A DNA stretch of 25,379 nucleotides from a virus. The stretch covers positions 1-25,379 of the IMG/VR virus record IMGVR_UViG_3300007072_000327. One strand, 5' to 3'. This document shows, piece after piece, positions 6,761-14,545 of the stretch. How positions within the stretch are numbered: the stretch's first letter is position 1; the number at the start of each line of letters is the position of its first letter. Both the position numbers and the translations under genes were made by a program. Under the pieces are notes generated by a model that was not told the DNA's origin, made no database searches, and saw nothing but the letters and a program-made list of their open reading frames with translations.

Positions 6761-7336
6761 ATGACTCCGAAGCTTTCCGATTCTCAGCTCGTCGTCCTTT
6801 CGACCGCCTGCCAGCGGCCGGACGCGTTCGTCTTTCCCGTCACCCTCAAGCTCAAGGGCAATGCCATCGGCAATGTGCTCAAGAGCCTCCTCACCAGGGG
6901 GCTCCTCGAAGAGATTCCGGGGCGGGCCGACGACACCATCTGGCGCTACGACGACGAGGGTGCGCCCCTGACCCTGCGCGCGACCCGCACCGCCTTCGAA
7001 GCCCTCGGCATCGAGCCCGACGACACGCTTACGGGCGACACGGCGGGCACGGACGAGACAGCCGCCGCCGAGGCCACGGAGCCTGCGGAGCCCGCGCCCG
7101 TGGCGCCCACGGGCGCGACGGCGCGCAAGACCCGCGAGGGCAGCAAGCAGGCGCAGCTAATCGGCATGCTGAAGCGCCCGGAGGGCGCCAGCATCGAGGA
7201 GATCGTCGCCGCCTTCGGCTGGCAGGCTCACACCGTGCGCGGTGCCATCGCCGGCGCGCTCAAGAAGAAGCTCGGGCTCGACGTGACCTCGGAAAAGGTC
7301 GACGGACGCGGCCGCGTCTACCGGATCCAGGCGTGA
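6761..7336 (+). CDS. DUF3489 domain protein
   Basis: 191 residues; AAGGA lies seven bases before ATG 6761. The C-terminal third (about 122-190: SKQAQLIGMLKRPEGASIEE, then GWQAHTVRGAIAGALKKKLG, then a DGRGRVYRI end) matches DUF3489, a predicted winged-helix domain. It is common in Proteobacteria and their mobile elements, without an established function. The N-terminal part (about 5-55, LSDSQLVVLSTACQRP...NVLKSLLTRGLLEEI) looks like a second winged-helix half. An acidic Ala/Pro/Thr linker (about 86-118) joins the two. The two-HTH layout suggests nucleic-acid binding, but that is inference. The next gene is probably co-transcribed, starting 30 bases later. Confidence 0.85.
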   Translation: MTPKLSDSQLVVLSTACQRPDAFVFPVTLKLKGNAIGNVLKSLLTRGLLEEIPGRADDTIWRYDDEGAPLTLRATRTAFEALGIEPDDTLTGDTAGTDETAAAEATEPAEPAPVAPTGATARKTREGSKQAQLIGMLKRPEGASIEEIVAAFGWQAHTVRGAIAGALKKKLGLDVTSEKVDGRGRVYRIQA

Positions 7337-7971: not shown

Positions 7972-8197
7972 TCGTCTCACTGCGCCGGATACGGATCGCT
8001 TCGAACAGCCGGCGCAGCGCGTAGGAGCGCACGATCGACACGCCCGTGAAGATCGCGCCTATGGTCAAGTTGTCCGAGAAGGACACTTCGAGCCCGAACA
8101 GGGGGAACACCGCGATCTGGGCCAGCACCGCCACGCCGAAACCGACGGCCACGTTGGCGATCGCCTCGGCCAGCGACATGATGCGTGACTGCTTCAC
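7955..8197 (-). CDS. Small membrane protein, DUF7220-like
   Basis: 80 residues from GTG 8197, which overlaps the stop of the upstream methyltransferase (GTGA); ATG 8179 is an alternative. Two hydrophobic segments are visible: about 12-36 (AIANVAVGFGVAVLAQIAVFPLFGL) and about 44-60 (LTIGAIFTGVSIVRSYA). They are followed by a basic tail (LRRLFEAIRIRR), so it is likely an inner-membrane protein with the tail in the cytoplasm. The sequence closely matches my memory of DUF7220 proteins, which sit next to methyltransferase genes in alphaproteobacterial phages. Function is not established. A holin-like role is conceivable from size and topology, but nothing lytic is nearby. Confidence 0.8.
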   Translation of the reverse strand: MKQSRIMSLAEAIANVAVGFGVAVLAQIAVFPLFGLEVSFSDNLTIGAIFTGVSIVRSYALRRLFEAIRIRRSETTTAGR

Positions 8198-9474
8198 GCT
8201 GCCGTCCGCTCGGCCTTCATGTCCGCAAAGGTTCGATCGCTGCCGTCGAGGATCGCGGCCGATCCCGTGAACGCCTGCCAGCGCTCGACGATGACGTCGC
8301 AGTAGCGCGGATCGATCTCCAGCGCGAGGCAGGATCGCCCCGTGCTCTCCGCTGCGATGATCGTCGAGCCGCTGCCGGCGAAGGGCTCGTAGACGAGATC
8401 GCCGCGCCTGCTGTTGTTGACGATCGGCCGGCGCATGCACTCGACCGGCTTCTGCGTGCCGTGTGTGGTTGCTTCGTCCTCGTCGCCGCCGCTGGTCCCC
8501 TGGCTTGACCAGGGGATCGTCCACAGCGTCGACTGGTCGCGCGCGCCCTGCCAGTGCCCGTTCGCGCCCTTGCGGACCGCGTAGAAGCACGGCTCGTGCT
8601 GCCAGTGATAGTCGCCGCGGCCGAGCACGAAGCGCGGCTTCGCCCAGATGATCTGCGAGCGGATCATCAGCCCACTCGCTTCCAGGCTCTCCGCCACGGT
8701 GCGGGCATGGACGCCCGCATGCCACACGTAGGCCACGTCGCCGGGGAACAGCGCCCAGGCCTCGCGCCAGTCGGCGCGGTCATCGTTCGAGACCCGGCCC
8801 GTGCGCGCGGTGGCGGATACGCCCGCTTCGTTGCGCCAAGCCGGGTCGTACTCGACCCCGTAGGGCGGGTCCGTCACCATCAGGTGCGGGACCGCACCCG
8901 CGAGCAGTCGCTCGACATCGGCGGCGCTCGTGGCGTCGCCGCAGAGCAGCCGATGCTTGCCAAGCAGCCAGAGGTCGCCCGGGCGTGTGACGGGATCCGC
9001 CGGCGGCTCCGGGACGACGTCCTCACCGTCCGTGCCGCCATTGGGCCCGTTCAGGTCGTCGAGCAGGCGGTCGAGCTCGTCCTCGCCAAAGCCGAGGAGA
9101 TCGAGGTCGATCCCGTCCTCCTTGAGCCGCCCTAGCTCAGCTGCGAGCATCGCGTCATCCCAGCCGGCAAGCTCGGTCAGCTTGTTGTCGGCGATGCGGT
9201 AGGCACGCGCCTCCGCGTCGCTCAAGTGGTCGAGGCGGATGACCGGCACTTCCCTGAGCCCGATCTTCCGGGCCGCAAGCAGCCGGCCGTGACCGGCGAC
9301 CAGCACACCGCGTTCATCGACAAGGCAGGGTGCGGTCCAGCCGAAGCGCACGAGGCTTTCGGCAAGCCTTGCCACCTGATCCTCGCCGTGCACACGCGCG
9401 TTGCCCGCATAGGGGATGAGCCGGTCGACTGGCCAAAGCTCGATCGCCGAGGACTGGAAGCGAAGGTCTTTCAT
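8194..9474 (-). CDS. ParB-like nuclease domain plus DNA methyltransferase, DPPY type
   Basis: 426 residues from ATG 9474. Residues about 12-100 are a ParB/Srx-type domain, with the motif VAGHGRLLAAR (about 59-69) and the usual AYRIADNKLTELAGWD tail. A charged linker leads to a methyltransferase domain. Its catalytic motif TDPPYG (201-206) comes before the AdoMet-binding FAGSGST (365-371), the order of beta-class amino-methyltransferases. NDPPY/DPPY is typical of N6-adenine enzymes, so adenine methylation is the likelier outcome; the target site cannot be read from sequence. No restriction endonuclease is adjacent, so it is an orphan enzyme. It is paralogous to the next gene. The start lacks a good ribosome-binding site and follows a 5-bp-periodic spacer. 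Confidence 0.92.
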   Translation of the reverse strand: MKDLRFQSSAIELWPVDRLIPYAGNARVHGEDQVARLAESLVRFGWTAPCLVDERGVLVAGHGRLLAARKIGLREVPVIRLDHLSDAEARAYRIADNKLTELAGWDDAMLAAELGRLKEDGIDLDLLGFGEDELDRLLDDLNGPNGGTDGEDVVPEPPADPVTRPGDLWLLGKHRLLCGDATSAADVERLLAGAVPHLMVTDPPYGVEYDPAWRNEAGVSATARTGRVSNDDRADWREAWALFPGDVAYVWHAGVHARTVAESLEASGLMIRSQIIWAKPRFVLGRGDYHWQHEPCFYAVRKGANGHWQGARDQSTLWTIPWSSQGTSGGDEDEATTHGTQKPVECMRRPIVNNSRRGDLVYEPFAGSGSTIIAAESTGRSCLALEIDPRYCDVIVERWQAFTGSAAILDGSDRTFADMKAERTAA

Positions 9475-9585
9475 GATGGGCTCACAGGCGGACGACCAGG
9501 ACAGCCGGGCGATGCCTTGCCAAACCCCGCCAAGCCTCGACGCGCCATGCCGGCCGCGCCGGCGCCGCTCCGGATTGCCTGCCCC
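9475..9585 (-). repeat. 5-bp periodic GGC-rich spacer before the DPPY methyltransferase
   Basis: On the minus strand, 9475-9585 reads as GGC/GGG triplets recurring every five bases (for example GGCTT GGCGG GGTTT GGCAA GGCAT). It contains CCTCGACGCGCCATGCCGGC (plus strand, 9535-9554), which recurs with one change at 11055-11074 in the spacer before the second methyltransferase. No gene is apparent. Five is not a multiple of three, so the pattern is not codon structure. Confidence 0.75.
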
Positions 9586-11001
9586 TCAAGAGATCGGCGC
9601 AAGCCCAACGCCGCGCTGCCTTGCGACCGCTTCGAAGTCTTCGGTCCCGCCATCGAGGATCGCTGGCTGATCGGGGAAGAGCTGCCGCCACCGCAGAAGC
9701 GCGACGTCCACATATTCCGGGGCAAGCTCGATCGCTCTCACCTGCCGGCCGGTCCGCTCGCCGGCGATGATGCTGGTGCCCGAGCCCGCGAACGGCTCGT
9801 AGACGATATCGCCTTCATTGCTGTAGGCGTGCATCCCGAACTCGGGCAGCGCCACCGGGAACACCGCCGGGTGCTCGGTCTCTAGCCCACGCGCCTTGTG
9901 TCGCATGATGCGGATGACGTTGTCGGGGATGCGCGTCTCCTGGACGCCCTGGCCGGCATGGGTCCACGCGCCCACCGTCCCGTCCTTGCCCCGCATGCCG
10001 CCATGGGCGTCGTTGATGTGGCCGGCCCATTTGCAGGGCACGATCTTGTTCGGCTTGCGCGGCTTGCGATTGAAGTGGAACACGAACTCGAATGCGGGCG
10101 CCAGACGCCCGTTCCAGTCGCCGGGAAGTCCGGGCCCCTGGTCCCAGACGTAAAGGCCGAAGCGCCGCCAGCCCTGAGCTCGCATCCAGTCGAGCCAGGA
10201 TTCCCAATAGGGCTGCCACTCGTTGTCGCGGTGGACGAGGCCGAGGTTGACGAGCACCTGGCCATCCTCGGCTATCACCTCGTCGAGGTTGTCGAAGACG
10301 CCGCGCATCAGGGCGTCCCAATCGCCGATCCCACCGGTGGTGTAGTTCCGCTGGTTGCCGTAGGGTGGGCTCGTGAACAGCAGCGACGCGCGCTCGCCGT
10401 CCATGATCCGGGCAACAGACTTCGCGTCCGTGCTGTCGCCGCAGAGCAGGCGATGATCGCCGAGCCGCCAGAGATCGCCCGGCCGGCTGACCGGGTTGCG
10501 CGGCGGCTCGGGCGCTTCGTCAGCGGCGTCATCGTTTTCGCCGGAGTCGCCGTCCGGCGACATTGCATCCGTGTCGTCGAGCGGCGCCATCAGCCGGTCG
10601 AGCTCGGCCTCGTCGAAGCCGAGGCCGTCGAGATCGAAGCCCTCGCCGTTCAGCGCATGCAGTTCCGCCGCGAGCAGGTCCTCGTTCCAGCCGCCGAGCT
10701 CGGTGAGCTTGTTGTCGGCAAGGCGATAGGCGCGGCGCTGAGCCGGCGTGAGATGCGAGATCCGGATCACCGGCACGCTCTTAAGGCCGAGACGCTGCGC
10801 CGCCAGCACGCGGCCATGCCCCGCGATCAGCGTGCCCTCGTCGTCAACCAAGCAGGGCACCAGCCAGCCATATTCCACCAGGCTTCCCGCCAGGAGGCCG
10901 ATCTGGCGCTCGTCGTGGGTCCTGGCGTTTGCCGCATAGGCCACAAGCTTCTCGATCGGCCACTGCTCGATGGCCGAGGCCTGAAAGCGAAGATCACGCA
11001 T
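9586..11001 (-). CDS. ParB-like nuclease domain plus DNA methyltransferase, SPPY type
   Basis: 471 residues from ATG 11001; the open frame further upstream runs through repeat DNA. The first 138 residues align without a gap to the 8194-9474 protein and are more than half identical by eye. They include AGHGRVLAAQRLG (about 60-72) and AYRLADNKLTELGGW. An acidic linker (about 140-165) leads to the methyltransferase domain with TSPPYGNQR (210-218) and FAGSGTS (404-410), beta-class order. The S in SPPY is more usual for N4-cytosine enzymes, so this paralogue may make a different base modification. No partner nuclease is visible. It lies downstream of two phage proteins of unknown function and a 260-bp repeat spacer, in the same direction. 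Confidence 0.92.
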   Translation of the reverse strand: MRDLRFQASAIEQWPIEKLVAYAANARTHDERQIGLLAGSLVEYGWLVPCLVDDEGTLIAGHGRVLAAQRLGLKSVPVIRISHLTPAQRRAYRLADNKLTELGGWNEDLLAAELHALNGEGFDLDGLGFDEAELDRLMAPLDDTDAMSPDGDSGENDDAADEAPEPPRNPVSRPGDLWRLGDHRLLCGDSTDAKSVARIMDGERASLLFTSPPYGNQRNYTTGGIGDWDALMRGVFDNLDEVIAEDGQVLVNLGLVHRDNEWQPYWESWLDWMRAQGWRRFGLYVWDQGPGLPGDWNGRLAPAFEFVFHFNRKPRKPNKIVPCKWAGHINDAHGGMRGKDGTVGAWTHAGQGVQETRIPDNVIRIMRHKARGLETEHPAVFPVALPEFGMHAYSNEGDIVYEPFAGSGTSIIAGERTGRQVRAIELAPEYVDVALLRWRQLFPDQPAILDGGTEDFEAVARQRGVGLAPIS

Positions 11002-11262
11002 GGTTGTTTGGATCAGTCCGTGGCAAGCCGCCTTGCCGTGCGCAGCCCCGCCAACCTCGACACGCCATGCCGGCCATGACTTGCCCCGCCCAGGCTTGCC
11101 CGGCCCTTCCGGACCAGAACCAGCCATGCGGCGCCTGCCGTGCCAAGCCTCACCACGCCTGGACCAGCCCGATCATGCCAAACACCGCCAGCCATGCCCG
11201 ACCCAGGCCTTGCTGCGCCCCGCCGACGGTGCCAGACCTAGCCTAGCCACGCCATTGAGAAG
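11002..11262 (-). repeat. 5-bp periodic GGC-rich spacer before the SPPY methyltransferase
   Basis: About 230 bp (roughly 11020-11250). On the minus strand it parses as consecutive five-base units, such as TGGCG TGGCT AGGCT AGGTC TGGCA, and later GGCGT GGTGA GGCTT GGCAC GGCAG. GG keeps a five-base phase over most of the block, with a few slips. Open frames cross it in several phases, but none has a start signal. It shares a 20-base segment (11055-11074; 19 of 20 identical) with the spacer before the other methyltransferase. Confidence 0.8.
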
Positions 11263-11769
11263 TCACGCCGCCAGCGGCGGCAATGCCCGCTCGATCTCAT
11301 CGAGCGCCGCGAACAGTTGGGCGAACTCGGTCAGTTGCGCGTAGCGCTTGCGCAGCATCTGGAAATCCTCCCAGGCCTGGCGCAACACGATGGCCCGCCG
11401 CTCGGGATCCGACAATGCAAGGGCGGTCGCGGTGTAGTACTGGCGGTCGCCGTCTTTCACATTCACGAAGGCGACGACGCTGCGCGCGCCATCGCCGGGA
11501 GCGGCCCGGTAGCGCACGACCACCGAGCGGATCAGAGCGCGCGCCTGCACCAGGCGATATTGACGGGCGGCCTCCGTGTCGTCCCATTCGAACAGCGAAT
11601 GCAGCGGCGAAGCCGAATGACGAGCATCCGCTATGACAACCTCCGGCGTCAGTTCACCGTCTCCTGCAATGCGCAATTGTTCCAGCCGCGCGCCCACCAC
11701 TTGCGCCGCCACCCGTGCGCCCTTCTGCAGTCGCGCACCGTCACGCCAGGCATATTCGAGCCTATCCAT
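11263..11769 (-). CDS. Phage protein of unknown function
   Basis: 168 residues from ATG 11769, with GGAGG seven bases upstream. Its first base is the last base of the stop codon of the upstream gene (TGATG), so the two genes are translationally coupled. The protein is soluble. It has a mixed central part (YRLVQARALIRSVVVRYRA, about 91-109; VVAFVNVKDGDRQYYTATA, about 117-135) and a long helical C-terminus (QAWEDFQMLRKRYAQLTEFAQLFAALDEIERAL). I do not recognise a family. Constant association with the upstream gene would suggest they act together; a 5-bp periodic spacer follows it. Confidence 0.82.
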   Translation of the reverse strand: MDRLEYAWRDGARLQKGARVAAQVVGARLEQLRIAGDGELTPEVVIADARHSASPLHSLFEWDDTEAARQYRLVQARALIRSVVVRYRAAPGDGARSVVAFVNVKDGDRQYYTATALALSDPERRAIVLRQAWEDFQMLRKRYAQLTEFAQLFAALDEIERALPPLAA

Positions 11770-12437
11770 CACGCGGCCTCCGCAACGAGGCGCTGCAGCT
11801 CATCGGCGGTCGCCACATGGAACATGCCGAACTGGCCGTCCTTCTCGGGACGCCACTCGCCGATGCCCACACCGAACCCCGCCGTGTTGAACAGGTTCAC
11901 GATCTGCGCCGCGCTCAGCACATTGGCGTTGAAGCGCACCCGCACCGTGGCATGCCAGGGCCAGAACTGCCCGCGGTAGCGGATGTCGGCAGTGCCCATG
12001 GCGATCCGCACCATGTCCTCGCGCATCTCCGGCTCCGATCCCAGAATGCGCACCAGGTCCATGCGCATCAGCGCGCCGTTGAAGGCGCCGCGCACTGCCG
12101 ATTGCGCGCCCACCACATGGAACGCCTGGCGCGCCGCCACCTTGGTGATGCCGGCAACCGAAGTGCAGGCGGTGACGGCTGCCGCCTTGAATGCGACCGA
12201 CGGGAAGCCATAGCCGCCGCCTTCGATCCGATAGAGGCTCTGCTGAAAGTCCTCGCGCGGGTCCTTCGCCTCCTTAGCCGGCTTGGCCAGCTTCATCTGC
12301 TTGCCCAGCATCTCGCGCTTGGCCTTCTCCGACCAGGCGTGCGAGATCAGCGGGGTGTCGCCGACAAGGGTAACTTCGATGATTTCCAGGTTGAGCGGCG
12401 GAAGCTCGATCTGGGTCGTTTCCTTGACTGCTGCCAT
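11769..12437 (-). CDS. Phage protein of unknown function with RAMP-like glycine-rich pattern
   Basis: 222 residues from ATG 12437, with GGAG six bases upstream; an ATG at 12449 has no site. I know similar proteins only as uncharacterised phage proteins. Three stretches recall RAMP-fold (Cas7-like) RNA-binding proteins. These are LVGDTPLISHAWSEKAKREM near the N-terminus (about 24-43), YGFPSVAFKAAAVTAC (about 76-91, like the FPGSSLKGALR loop), and a glycine-rich AGFGVGIGEWRPEKDGQFG (about 186-204). A lysine-rich helix (KQMKLAKPAKEAKD) follows the first. The resemblance is by pattern only and may be coincidence. It is the first gene of the minus-strand run leading to the methyltransferases, and is coupled to the 168-residue gene. 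Confidence 0.82.
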   Translation of the reverse strand: MAAVKETTQIELPPLNLEIIEVTLVGDTPLISHAWSEKAKREMLGKQMKLAKPAKEAKDPREDFQQSLYRIEGGGYGFPSVAFKAAAVTACTSVAGITKVAARQAFHVVGAQSAVRGAFNGALMRMDLVRILGSEPEMREDMVRIAMGTADIRYRGQFWPWHATVRVRFNANVLSAAQIVNLFNTAGFGVGIGEWRPEKDGQFGMFHVATADELQRLVAEAA

Positions 12438-12914
12438 GTTGGTCTCCATCGGGTCCGGCGCGGCCACGCCCCGGACGCGAGTCAGGGGGTCACACGAATG
12501 CGACCACCGGACCCGATGAAGCTCGGATCGCACATGGTCGCGTCTCATCCCCGGTGGCCGCCGGGGAACAAGGCAAGGGGTCCGCAGGACGAGCCCGGTC
12601 ATCACCCAACCGCGTCGGGCAGCCGTGGCGACATGGACCTCGGAATCCGGATGGACGGGGTGGTAACCGGAGAGTGGTAACCGCCGCGGACGGTTACCGG
12701 GGCGGGCTCCCATTCGGGAGACGCGCCAAGCCCGCGCGAACACGGCCTTAATGCGTGCGACGAGCCGCGGGCTCAGTGGTAACTGGTAACTCAGATTTTG
12801 CCGCTGGCGGTAGCAAACTTCCGGGCCATTGCCGCCAGCATACGATCTCGGCCAGGGGGGACCCGTGATTTCAAAGGGTTAGGCCGATTTGGGTGCATTC
12901 GGGTGTCGAATTGG
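12438..12914. other. Control region between divergent operons, with GGTAAC repeats
   Basis: About 480 bases with no convincing gene. GGTAAC occurs at 12662-12667, 12676-12681, 12778-12783 and 12785-12790, and as its inverse GTTACC at 12693-12698. The last pair is an exact 7-bp tandem (TGGTAAC twice, 12777-12790). The minus strand has a short frame ending at about 12797 (MLAAMARKFATASGKI) that could be the remnant of a gene end, but it has no start signal. Promoters for the methyltransferase operon (minus) are expected here; none is clear. Confidence 0.6.
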
Positions 12915-13038: not shown

Positions 13039-13290
13039 ATGAAGATCACGGACAGCAAAAGCTTGGGCAACGTCGTGCGCGAAGCACGCCGCGCGCTCGG
13101 CGTCACGCAGGACCAGCTCGCCCTCACCTCCGGCACGAACCGCCGTTTCATCATCGAGCTGGAGCAGGGCAAGTCCACCGCCCAGATCGGCAAGGTGCTC
13201 CAGGTGCTCCGAACGCTCGGCTGCTCCCTCGAACTGACGATGCCACCCACACTGAAGGACAAGGACCGCGCCCATGGCCCGAGAGCTTGA
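13039..13290 (+). CDS. hipB: HipB-like antitoxin, XRE-family repressor
   Basis: 83 residues from ATG 13039, with GGGA eight bases before; ATG 13033, two codons earlier, is possible. Residues about 10-62 are an XRE helix-turn-helix (LGNVVREARRALGVTQDQLALTS, then RRFIIELEQGKSTAQIGKVL), the standard HipB fold. HipB neutralises the HipA kinase by direct binding and represses its own operon through palindromic operators. Three such palindromes lie upstream, the last overlapping the start. The gene overlaps hipA by 17 bases, the usual antitoxin-first order. The call is confident because of both the domain and the partner. Confidence 0.9.
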   Translation: MKITDSKSLGNVVREARRALGVTQDQLALTSGTNRRFIIELEQGKSTAQIGKVLQVLRTLGCSLELTMPPTLKDKDRAHGPRA

Positions 13291-14545
13291 GGTCTATTTC
13301 GAGCAGCGGCTCGTGGGCACGCTGGTGCAGGACGAGTCCGGTCAGCTTCGCTTCACCTATCACGAGGCCTGGCTGGCCGACCCGGCAAGCGTTCCCATCT
13401 CGTGGTCTCTCCCGCTCAGATCAGAGCCCTTCAATCACCGGGAAACGCGCCCTTTCTTCGCGGGCCTCCTGCCGGAGGCCGAGAAGCGTGAGCTCGTGGC
13501 GCGCGCGCTCGGCGTCTCGGATCGCAACGACTTCGCACTGCTCGACCGGATCGGCGGCGAATGCGCCGGCGCCATCACGCTTCTTCATGCCGGTGAGACG
13601 CCGCCGCCTGTTTCCAAGGAGGCCGACTACAGGCTTCTCGATGACGGCGAATCAAGGCGCATTCTCGATGTGCTTCCCGATCGGCCTCTGCTCGCCGGTG
13701 AAGAAGGCGTGCGCCTCAGCCTCGCCGGCGCGCAGGACAAGCTGCCCGTTCTCGTCGTCGACGGACGGATCGCCCTGCCGCTCCATGGCGCGCCGAGCAC
13801 GCACATTCTGAAGCCTCCGATCCGGCGCTTCGAGGATACGGTCTTCAACGAGGGGTTCTGCCTCGCGCTCGCCAAGGCCATCGGGCTCGACGTCGCCGCG
13901 GCGGAGATTCGCGCGGTCGGCGACCGTCCCTTTCTGCTTGTCGCCCGCTATGACCGGATTCGGGGAAGAGACGGCGCCGTCCGCCGGCTGCACCAGGAGG
14001 ATTTCTGCCAGGCCCTCGGCATCGTGCCTGAGCTGAAGTACCAGTCCGAAGGCGGCCCAAGCTTACGCCAATGCTTCGAGCTCGTGCGGAACGCCGCCGC
14101 GCGTCCCGTCGTGGACCTGGCCCGTCTCCTCGACGCCGTGCTGTTCAATCTCTTCGTCGGCAACCGCGACGCGCACGGCAAGAACTACTCCCTGCTGTTC
14201 ACCGACGACGGCGTGCAGCTCGCGCCGCTCTATGACGTCCTCTCGACGGACGTATACCCTGGCCTCTCACCGCGGCTCGCCATGAAGATCGGCGGCAAAG
14301 ACGAAACAGGCGCGATCTACCCCCGCCACTGGGAGCACTTCGCCAAGGAGGCGGGACTCGCCTTTCCGCAGGTCCGCCGCCGGCTGCTCGATCTTGCGCG
14401 AGCTCTGCCTCAAGCCGCGCGCGATGTGCAACGACGGTTTGCTGCCGAAGGCAAGGATCGACCGGTCATCGCCCGGGTGGTCGACGTCATCGACCGCGAG
14501 ACCAAGCTCGTCATCGATCGCTTTGCGTCCATGGGGAAGGTCTGA
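13274..14545 (+). CDS. hipA: HipA-like serine/threonine kinase toxin
   Basis: 423 residues; E. coli HipA has 440, so it is full length. The N-terminal subdomain starts RELEVYFEQRLVGTL and includes NHRETRPFFAGLLPEAEKRE (about 54-73). VRLSLAGAQDKLPV (about 146-159) is the phosphate-binding loop; Ser149 lies where E. coli Ser150 is autophosphorylated. HILK (177-180) supplies the ATP-contact lysine. The catalytic loop is FVGNRDAHGKNYSLL (about 294-308) with Asp299, and YDVLSTD (about 320-326) gives the metal-binding Asp321. All key residues are present, so it should be active. E. coli HipA phosphorylates glutamyl-tRNA synthetase and induces dormancy; the target here is unknown. It is preceded by hipB with an overlap, and an inverted repeat follows. 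Confidence 0.93.
   Translation: MARELEVYFEQRLVGTLVQDESGQLRFTYHEAWLADPASVPISWSLPLRSEPFNHRETRPFFAGLLPEAEKRELVARALGVSDRNDFALLDRIGGECAGAITLLHAGETPPPVSKEADYRLLDDGESRRILDVLPDRPLLAGEEGVRLSLAGAQDKLPVLVVDGRIALPLHGAPSTHILKPPIRRFEDTVFNEGFCLALAKAIGLDVAAAEIRAVGDRPFLLVARYDRIRGRDGAVRRLHQEDFCQALGIVPELKYQSEGGPSLRQCFELVRNAAARPVVDLARLLDAVLFNLFVGNRDAHGKNYSLLFTDDGVQLAPLYDVLSTDVYPGLSPRLAMKIGGKDETGAIYPRHWEHFAKEAGLAFPQVRRRLLDLARALPQAARDVQRRFAAEGKDRPVIARVVDVIDRETKLVIDRFASMGKV

Follow-up and report, generated by a model that had tools for sequence, protein, structure and literature searches.

Five-base-periodic tracts before two phage methyltransferase genes as probable VIPR guide arrays matching the methyltransferases of rival phages

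Why would a phage carry, directly in front of each of two methyltransferase genes, a spacer with a period of five bases? The question is raised by the window, by which we mean the whole 25,379-nucleotide stretch of IMG/VR virus record IMGVR_UViG_3300007072_000327. An initial annotation, made from the sequence alone, proposed recombination tracts, structured leaders or binding arrays and knew of no described function for such phage tracts. One has in fact been described. A 2026 preprint (PMC13142463) reports VIPR (Viral Interference Programmable Repeat), which consists of a phage-encoded Cas7-like protein, Vipr, and guide RNAs (vrRNAs) in which GGY triplets alternate with NN pairs. It is the NN pairs that recognise the DNA, passing over one base in each unit, and a Vipr–vrRNA complex bound to a gene represses that gene (PMC13142463). 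The systems described there are sorted into types I–VII, with accessory genes vap1 to vap6 (PMC13142463). Published VIPR repeats are non-coding tandem YNNGG (GGY/NN) units, 9–16 per guide, located at the vipr locus (PMC13142463). We consider it very probable that the tracts in the window are VIPR guide arrays, and that their decoded guides match the methyltransferase genes of rivals and not the phage's own copies.

The order of features along the minus strand, from the 226-aa gene through the 169-aa gene, tract 2, methyltransferase 2 and tract 1 to methyltransferase 1, is as follows:

11769..12449, minus strand: vipr, 226 aa, Cas7-like RAMP protein with G-loop GFGVGIGEWRPEKDGQFG; PHROG_4652
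11263..11772, minus strand: candidate vap (VIPR accessory) gene, 169 aa, PHROG_15946; 4-bp overlap with vipr
11002..11262, minus strand: tract 2, putative vrRNA array of about 46 GGY-NN units, 3' of vap and 5' of methyltransferase 2
9586..11001, minus strand: methyltransferase 2, 471 aa, ParB-like N-terminal domain and N6_N4 DNA methylase (PF01555, E 1e-20; PHROG_498, E 4.8e-112)
9475..9585, minus strand: tract 1, putative second vrRNA tract of about 13 units, between methyltransferases 2 and 1
8194..9474, minus strand: methyltransferase 1, 426 aa, ParB-like domain and N6_N4 DNA methylase (PF01555, E 1.1e-17; PHROG_498, E 3e-151)

Terminase and other late genes follow downstream on the same strand. 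A gene for a DUF3489 protein lies on the plus strand at 6761–7336, inside this minus-strand late region.

The five-base period is well supported in both tracts. Lag-5 identity on the minus strand was compared with 5000 dinucleotide shuffles per tract, which averaged 0.30–0.31. In tract 2 (11003–11262) it was 0.447 against a shuffle mean of 0.298 (z 5.4; 0 of 5000 shuffles as high), and in tract 1 (9475–9585) it was 0.415 (z 2.5; 52 of 5000 as high). When the whole 25 kb was scanned, the two tracts were the top-scoring lag-5 windows. Five consecutive GGCNN units with up to two mismatches occur 18 times in the window, always on the minus strand and in 16 cases inside the two tracts, and a strict scan for eight GGYNN units found both tracts on the minus strand and no other place. 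The periodicity first reported thus stands, as does a 20-base element common to both spacers with one mismatch (9535–9554, CCTCGACGCGCCATGCCGGC; 11055–11074, CCTCGACACGCCATGCCGGC). Two details needed revision. The repeating unit, described as GGC/GGG every five bases, is instead GGY-NN (GGC or GGT at five-base intervals), and a few units have 4 or 6 bases. The spacer lengths, given as about 110 and 230 bp, come to 111 and 261 bp, with methyltransferase 2 starting at 11001 and not at the first ATG of its open reading frame (11127).

The gene upstream of the tracts identifies the family to which the locus belongs. Twenty-two relatives of the 226-aa protein, from viruses and genomes, were combined into a family profile, and the one relevant PDB chain that this profile matched at the sequence level was 36pp_D ("SUSP1 Vipr protein"), with an E value of 4.5e-11 and nearly the whole chain aligned. 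The glycine-rich loop GxGEWRPEKDGxxG is largely conserved in this profile, and the protein is single and small (226 aa). Its predicted structure (pLDDT 81) has Csm3/Cas7 proteins as top matches (Foldseek E 1.4e-5; VIA Z 10.2). By sequence homology, then, the window protein is a member of the Vipr family related to SUSP1 Vipr, and the locus is very probably a VIPR system in a phage or prophage. A search of genome contigs, which detects close relatives only, returned three loci, in Phyllobacterium, Mesorhizobium and Corticibacterium; the host is therefore probably an alphaproteobacterium, and these loci do not narrow it further. Between vipr and a divergent HipA gene, positions 12450–12870 hold several GGTAACC/GGTTACC elements, some as inverted pairs, which may form an operator array. 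The HipA-like kinase gene, with a HipA N-terminal domain, adjoins the VIPR locus on the plus strand at 13274–14545.

The candidate vap protein has a conserved core, SPLHxxFEWDDTEAAxQYRLxQAR. The Mycobacterium, Gordonia and cyanophage records in which it has a match have one to vipr too, at neighbouring positions (33 records for either gene). It has no similarity to SUSP1 Vap1, no significant fold match in the PDB and no sequence match indicating a function. Relatives of the vipr and accessory pair in Mycobacterium and Gordonia phages (for example, MW534375.1 and NC_031262.1) are annotated as hypothetical proteins.

Reading the tracts by the one-base-skip rule yields protein motifs. The tract-1 guide decodes to IAEFGFNVP and the guide at the end of tract 2 to IVEFGWTN, both being the motif of the ParB domain:

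11033..11075, minus strand: last tract-2 guide, NN pairs CC AT GT GA TT GG TG AC AA, corresponding to (S)[IM]VEFGWTN of rival methyltransferases
9502..9566, minus strand: tract-1 guide, NN pairs GC GC CC AT GC GA TT GG TT AA AT CC TG, corresponding to AASIAEFGFNVPC in rival methyltransferase 1

The target sites are in codon phase, and the skipped base falls at the wobble (third codon) position. A GGTT unit in tract 2, standing in place of GGYTT, still fits the TT of its target, which suggests that units of four bases are read as GG plus NN. The 20-base element is shared because the two guides would aim at a common target box, in the ParB-like domain of two paralogous genes.

The tract-1 guide was scanned on loci that had been fetched before any target was known. 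With one skipped base it matched 17/18 positions in the ParB-methyltransferase genes of L212, L215, L130 and L133; off the rule, its best results were a single 16/18 with no skip and 15/18 with a skip of two. Over its full 13 units it reached 23/26 in the unselected loci, a score equalled by 6 of 24,485 unit permutations, with at most 19/26 at skips of 0 and 2; in rivals it reached up to 24/26. Eight units of the tract-2 end guide (s8) gave at least 134 exact matches in the fetched viral loci, and 126 of the 134 listed encode [IM]VEFGWTN; nine units matched 17/18 in 52 places. The tract-1 pattern (t1) had 102 matches in fetched viral DNA, of which 88 encode IAEFGFNVP. Scans of viral contigs returned at least 120 stretches for s8 and 114 for t1, and the skip-of-two control, with an unchanged series of NN pairs, gave 23 scattered stretches. 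Among the matches listed, both sites occurred together in 34 contigs, 1372–1394 bp apart and in the same orientation; such pairs, about 1.38 kb apart, are tandem methyltransferase genes. Because phage methyltransferases often share the ParB motif, counting target contigs exaggerates the independent evidence, and the contigs do not each represent a separate event. In 385 bacterial genomes from the class to which the Phyllobacterium relative belongs, the two patterns occurred once and twice; the targets found are thus essentially viral. The functional array linked to methyltransferases that was first supposed therefore survives as a link, for a different reason: the guides match the homologous genes of other phages.

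A general test of 6508 guides taken from 241 loci gave a modest excess at a skip of one, with 98 matches of at least 17/18 against 62 for unit-shuffled guides and 10 perfect matches against 2; there was no excess at skips of 0 and 2. Some of the matches lie in the vap genes, and probably also the vipr genes, of other phages. A guide of L220 matches the vap gene of L134 and L226 at 17/18, and a guide of L104 has an 18/18 match immediately upstream of the vap match in L178, L203, L205, L206 and L208, probably in vipr. A guide at L139:2982 (AT GA AA GC GA GG GG TA GC) matches at 18/18 at L090:6769 and L017:4700, where IEKADGGYA is encoded. The upstream guides of tract 2 (units 0–35, about three quarters of the tract) had no consistent target in 9-unit scans of 488 loci, and two trial patterns from this part stayed at chance level (CTNCGNATNCTNGGNTTNATNCG, 17 scattered stretches; CTNCCNAGNCGNAANTGNGGNAA, 5). 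A MerR-type gene of L284 and L336 was considered as a tract-2 target (16/18) and set aside when a wider scan added no support.

Both tracts directly adjoin the phage's own methyltransferase genes, as would be expected if the arrays served mainly for self-regulation, with the vrRNAs of the spacers tuning these genes. The own copies of the motif are the following:

10855..10884, minus strand: ParB motif in methyltransferase 2 (SLVEYGWLVP); highest scores of the own guides, 10/16 (s8) and 11/18 (t1 core)
9328..9357, minus strand: ParB motif in methyltransferase 1 (SLVRFGWTAP); highest scores of the own guides, 10/18 (t1 core) and 11/16 (s8)

The phage's own methyltransferases are thus mismatched to its own guides, which fit them at 10–11 of 16 or 18 positions against 16/16 and 17/18 in rival homologues. 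The same holds in sister phages, whose guides score clearly lower on the carrier's own genes than on the best rivals. We regard self-regulation as very improbable.

Comparison with related phages extends this pattern. L210 and L211 have both guides and methyltransferase alleles as in the window. L212, L214 and L215 are without the tract-1 guide and carry an allele that it matches (16–17/18). In the sister phages L213, L214 and L215, further guides decode to the methyltransferase motifs DPPYNVDYEG, GFDLGLTGF and SIIEFGWTN; the L213 guide for DPPYNVDYEG matches 20/20 in L304, L367 and L376. Another L213 guide matches methyltransferase 2 of the window at 16/18 over nine units and 18/24 over the whole block, and L214 and L215 have guides similar to those of L213.

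Such differences could also be taken as a sign that the tracts are low-complexity stretches for exchanging methyltransferase cassettes. Sister phages do differ sharply here in both tract and methyltransferase alleles, and L212 and L215, without tract 1, carry another methyltransferase 1 allele than the window. However, the tracts follow vipr and vap even in phages without methyltransferase neighbours. Among 49 loci encoding relatives, 44 have GGYNN tracts in the neighbourhood of vipr and on its strand, and the tracts cover 7.4% of bases from −1.5 to +2.5 kb of vipr against 0.14% elsewhere. They track vipr, and not module borders in general, which speaks against the exchange function first suggested. 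Outside the window's own subclade, no ParB-methyltransferase neighbour was detected; such a neighbour is therefore not a defining feature of the tracts, whose general neighbour is vipr; the position directly before a methyltransferase gene is accurate for the window and does not hold as a general rule. SUSP1's own vrRNA tracts, beside its vipr genes, have the same GGYNN grammar. Moreover, the NN content decodes to coding motifs under the one-base skip only, a code that recombination leaves unexplained, and exchange may be a by-product. We judge recombination tracts highly improbable as an account of these sequences.

Structured or G-quadruplex-forming mRNA leaders controlling methyltransferase translation, which GG every five bases might in principle allow by stacking as two-tier G-quadruplexes, are scarcely credible here, since structure prediction gave the 3' parts of both tracts a lower stability than their shuffles (z +1.3 and +1.1), an Rfam search of the tracts gave no match, and elsewhere tracts occur without a methyltransferase neighbour. 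Tract 2 ends in a short hairpin, GGCAAG-GCGG-CTTGCC, which is not kept in tract 1 and folds no better than shuffles, and no invariant structured 3' tail was found in the two tracts. A promoter scan gave nothing above chance and is uninformative for a GC-rich host. In the more distant family members L219 and L258, the arrays finish with a GC hairpin and then a T run, an arrangement that resembles a terminator and would fit stand-alone RNAs. A CRISPR array was rejected because the repeat unit is five bases with variable NN and parses give no repeat–spacer structure. An array of DNA-binding sites, also suggested at the outset, is not favoured, the code being read as RNA, with NN pairs and a one-base skip.

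Under the VIPR reading, Vipr, a single Cas7-like RAMP protein, would coat an RNA of GGY-NN units, with the GGY triplets holding the protein and the NN pairs reading double-stranded DNA as NNxNNxNNx. Tract 2 would comprise several guides and tract 1 one guide. Competing phages have two tandem methyltransferase genes, and the ParB-domain motif close to their 5' ends would be the site addressed by the tract-1 guide and by the final guide of tract 2, a position suited to blocking transcription of the gene and of what follows it. Binding would be expected to repress the rival's methyltransferase genes, and a blocked polymerase might repress downstream genes as well, as a polar effect. Each of the two guides would stand directly in front of the phage's own motif-diverged allele of the attacked gene, and it is this divergence that would spare the phage. 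Transcription of the tracts, formation of the ribonucleoprotein, repression, the polar effect and a benefit to the phage are steps that we infer.

This layout invites a more tentative proposal, for which we would put the chances at somewhat short of even: guide and immunity might form one cassette, and closely related phages might counter one another, allele by allele, in an arms race at the ParB-methyltransferase locus. Because the vrRNA is embedded before the resistant allele of the attacked gene, recombination that brings the weapon would, under this proposal, also bring the shield. As examples, the tract-1 guide matches methyltransferase 1 of L212 and L215, and the L213 guide may in turn match the window's EYGW allele (at the 16/18 and 18/24 given above).

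The locus resembles VIPR of Escherichia phage SUSP1 and of a Pseudomonas fulva prophage (PMC13142463) in its RAMP protein, in having vipr beside an accessory gene, in its GGY/NN arrays in flanking non-coding DNA, and in a one-base-skip code with skipped bases at wobble positions and targets in competing phages. It also differs from the SUSP1 system, whose repeats are mostly GGT, each in an RNA of about 100 nt with an invariant structured tail (PMC13142463); in the window, the arrays are long and GGC-rich, contain GGNN units of four bases and lack an obvious invariant tail, and the accessory protein is unrelated to SUSP1 Vap1. The targets published for VIPR comprise satellites, lysogeny regulators and further VIPR loci (PMC13142463), whereas those of the window are ParB-methyltransferase genes, which the main text of the preprint does not mention as VIPR targets (PMC13142463). 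With Class 1 CRISPR-Cas effectors (Cas7/Csm3 backbone), the window shares the RAMP fold (VIA Z ~10) and RNA-guided recognition. Unlike those systems, it lacks a cas operon, adaptation genes and direct repeats with spacers, and its guide would read DNA in a gapped fashion.

In summary, the one-base-skip code, published only as a 2026 preprint, holds on a sequence that was found without knowledge of it and that belongs to another Vipr lineage. ParB-methyltransferases of rival phages would constitute a new class of VIPR target, and defined guide–target pairs are now available for bench work. The natural guides appear to aim at conserved protein motifs (the EFGW box and the DPPY catalytic box) at which the carrier's own copy is mismatched. 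The placement of a guide beside a resistant allele is suggestive, and our results hint at why phage methyltransferase alleles diverge at motifs that look invariant.
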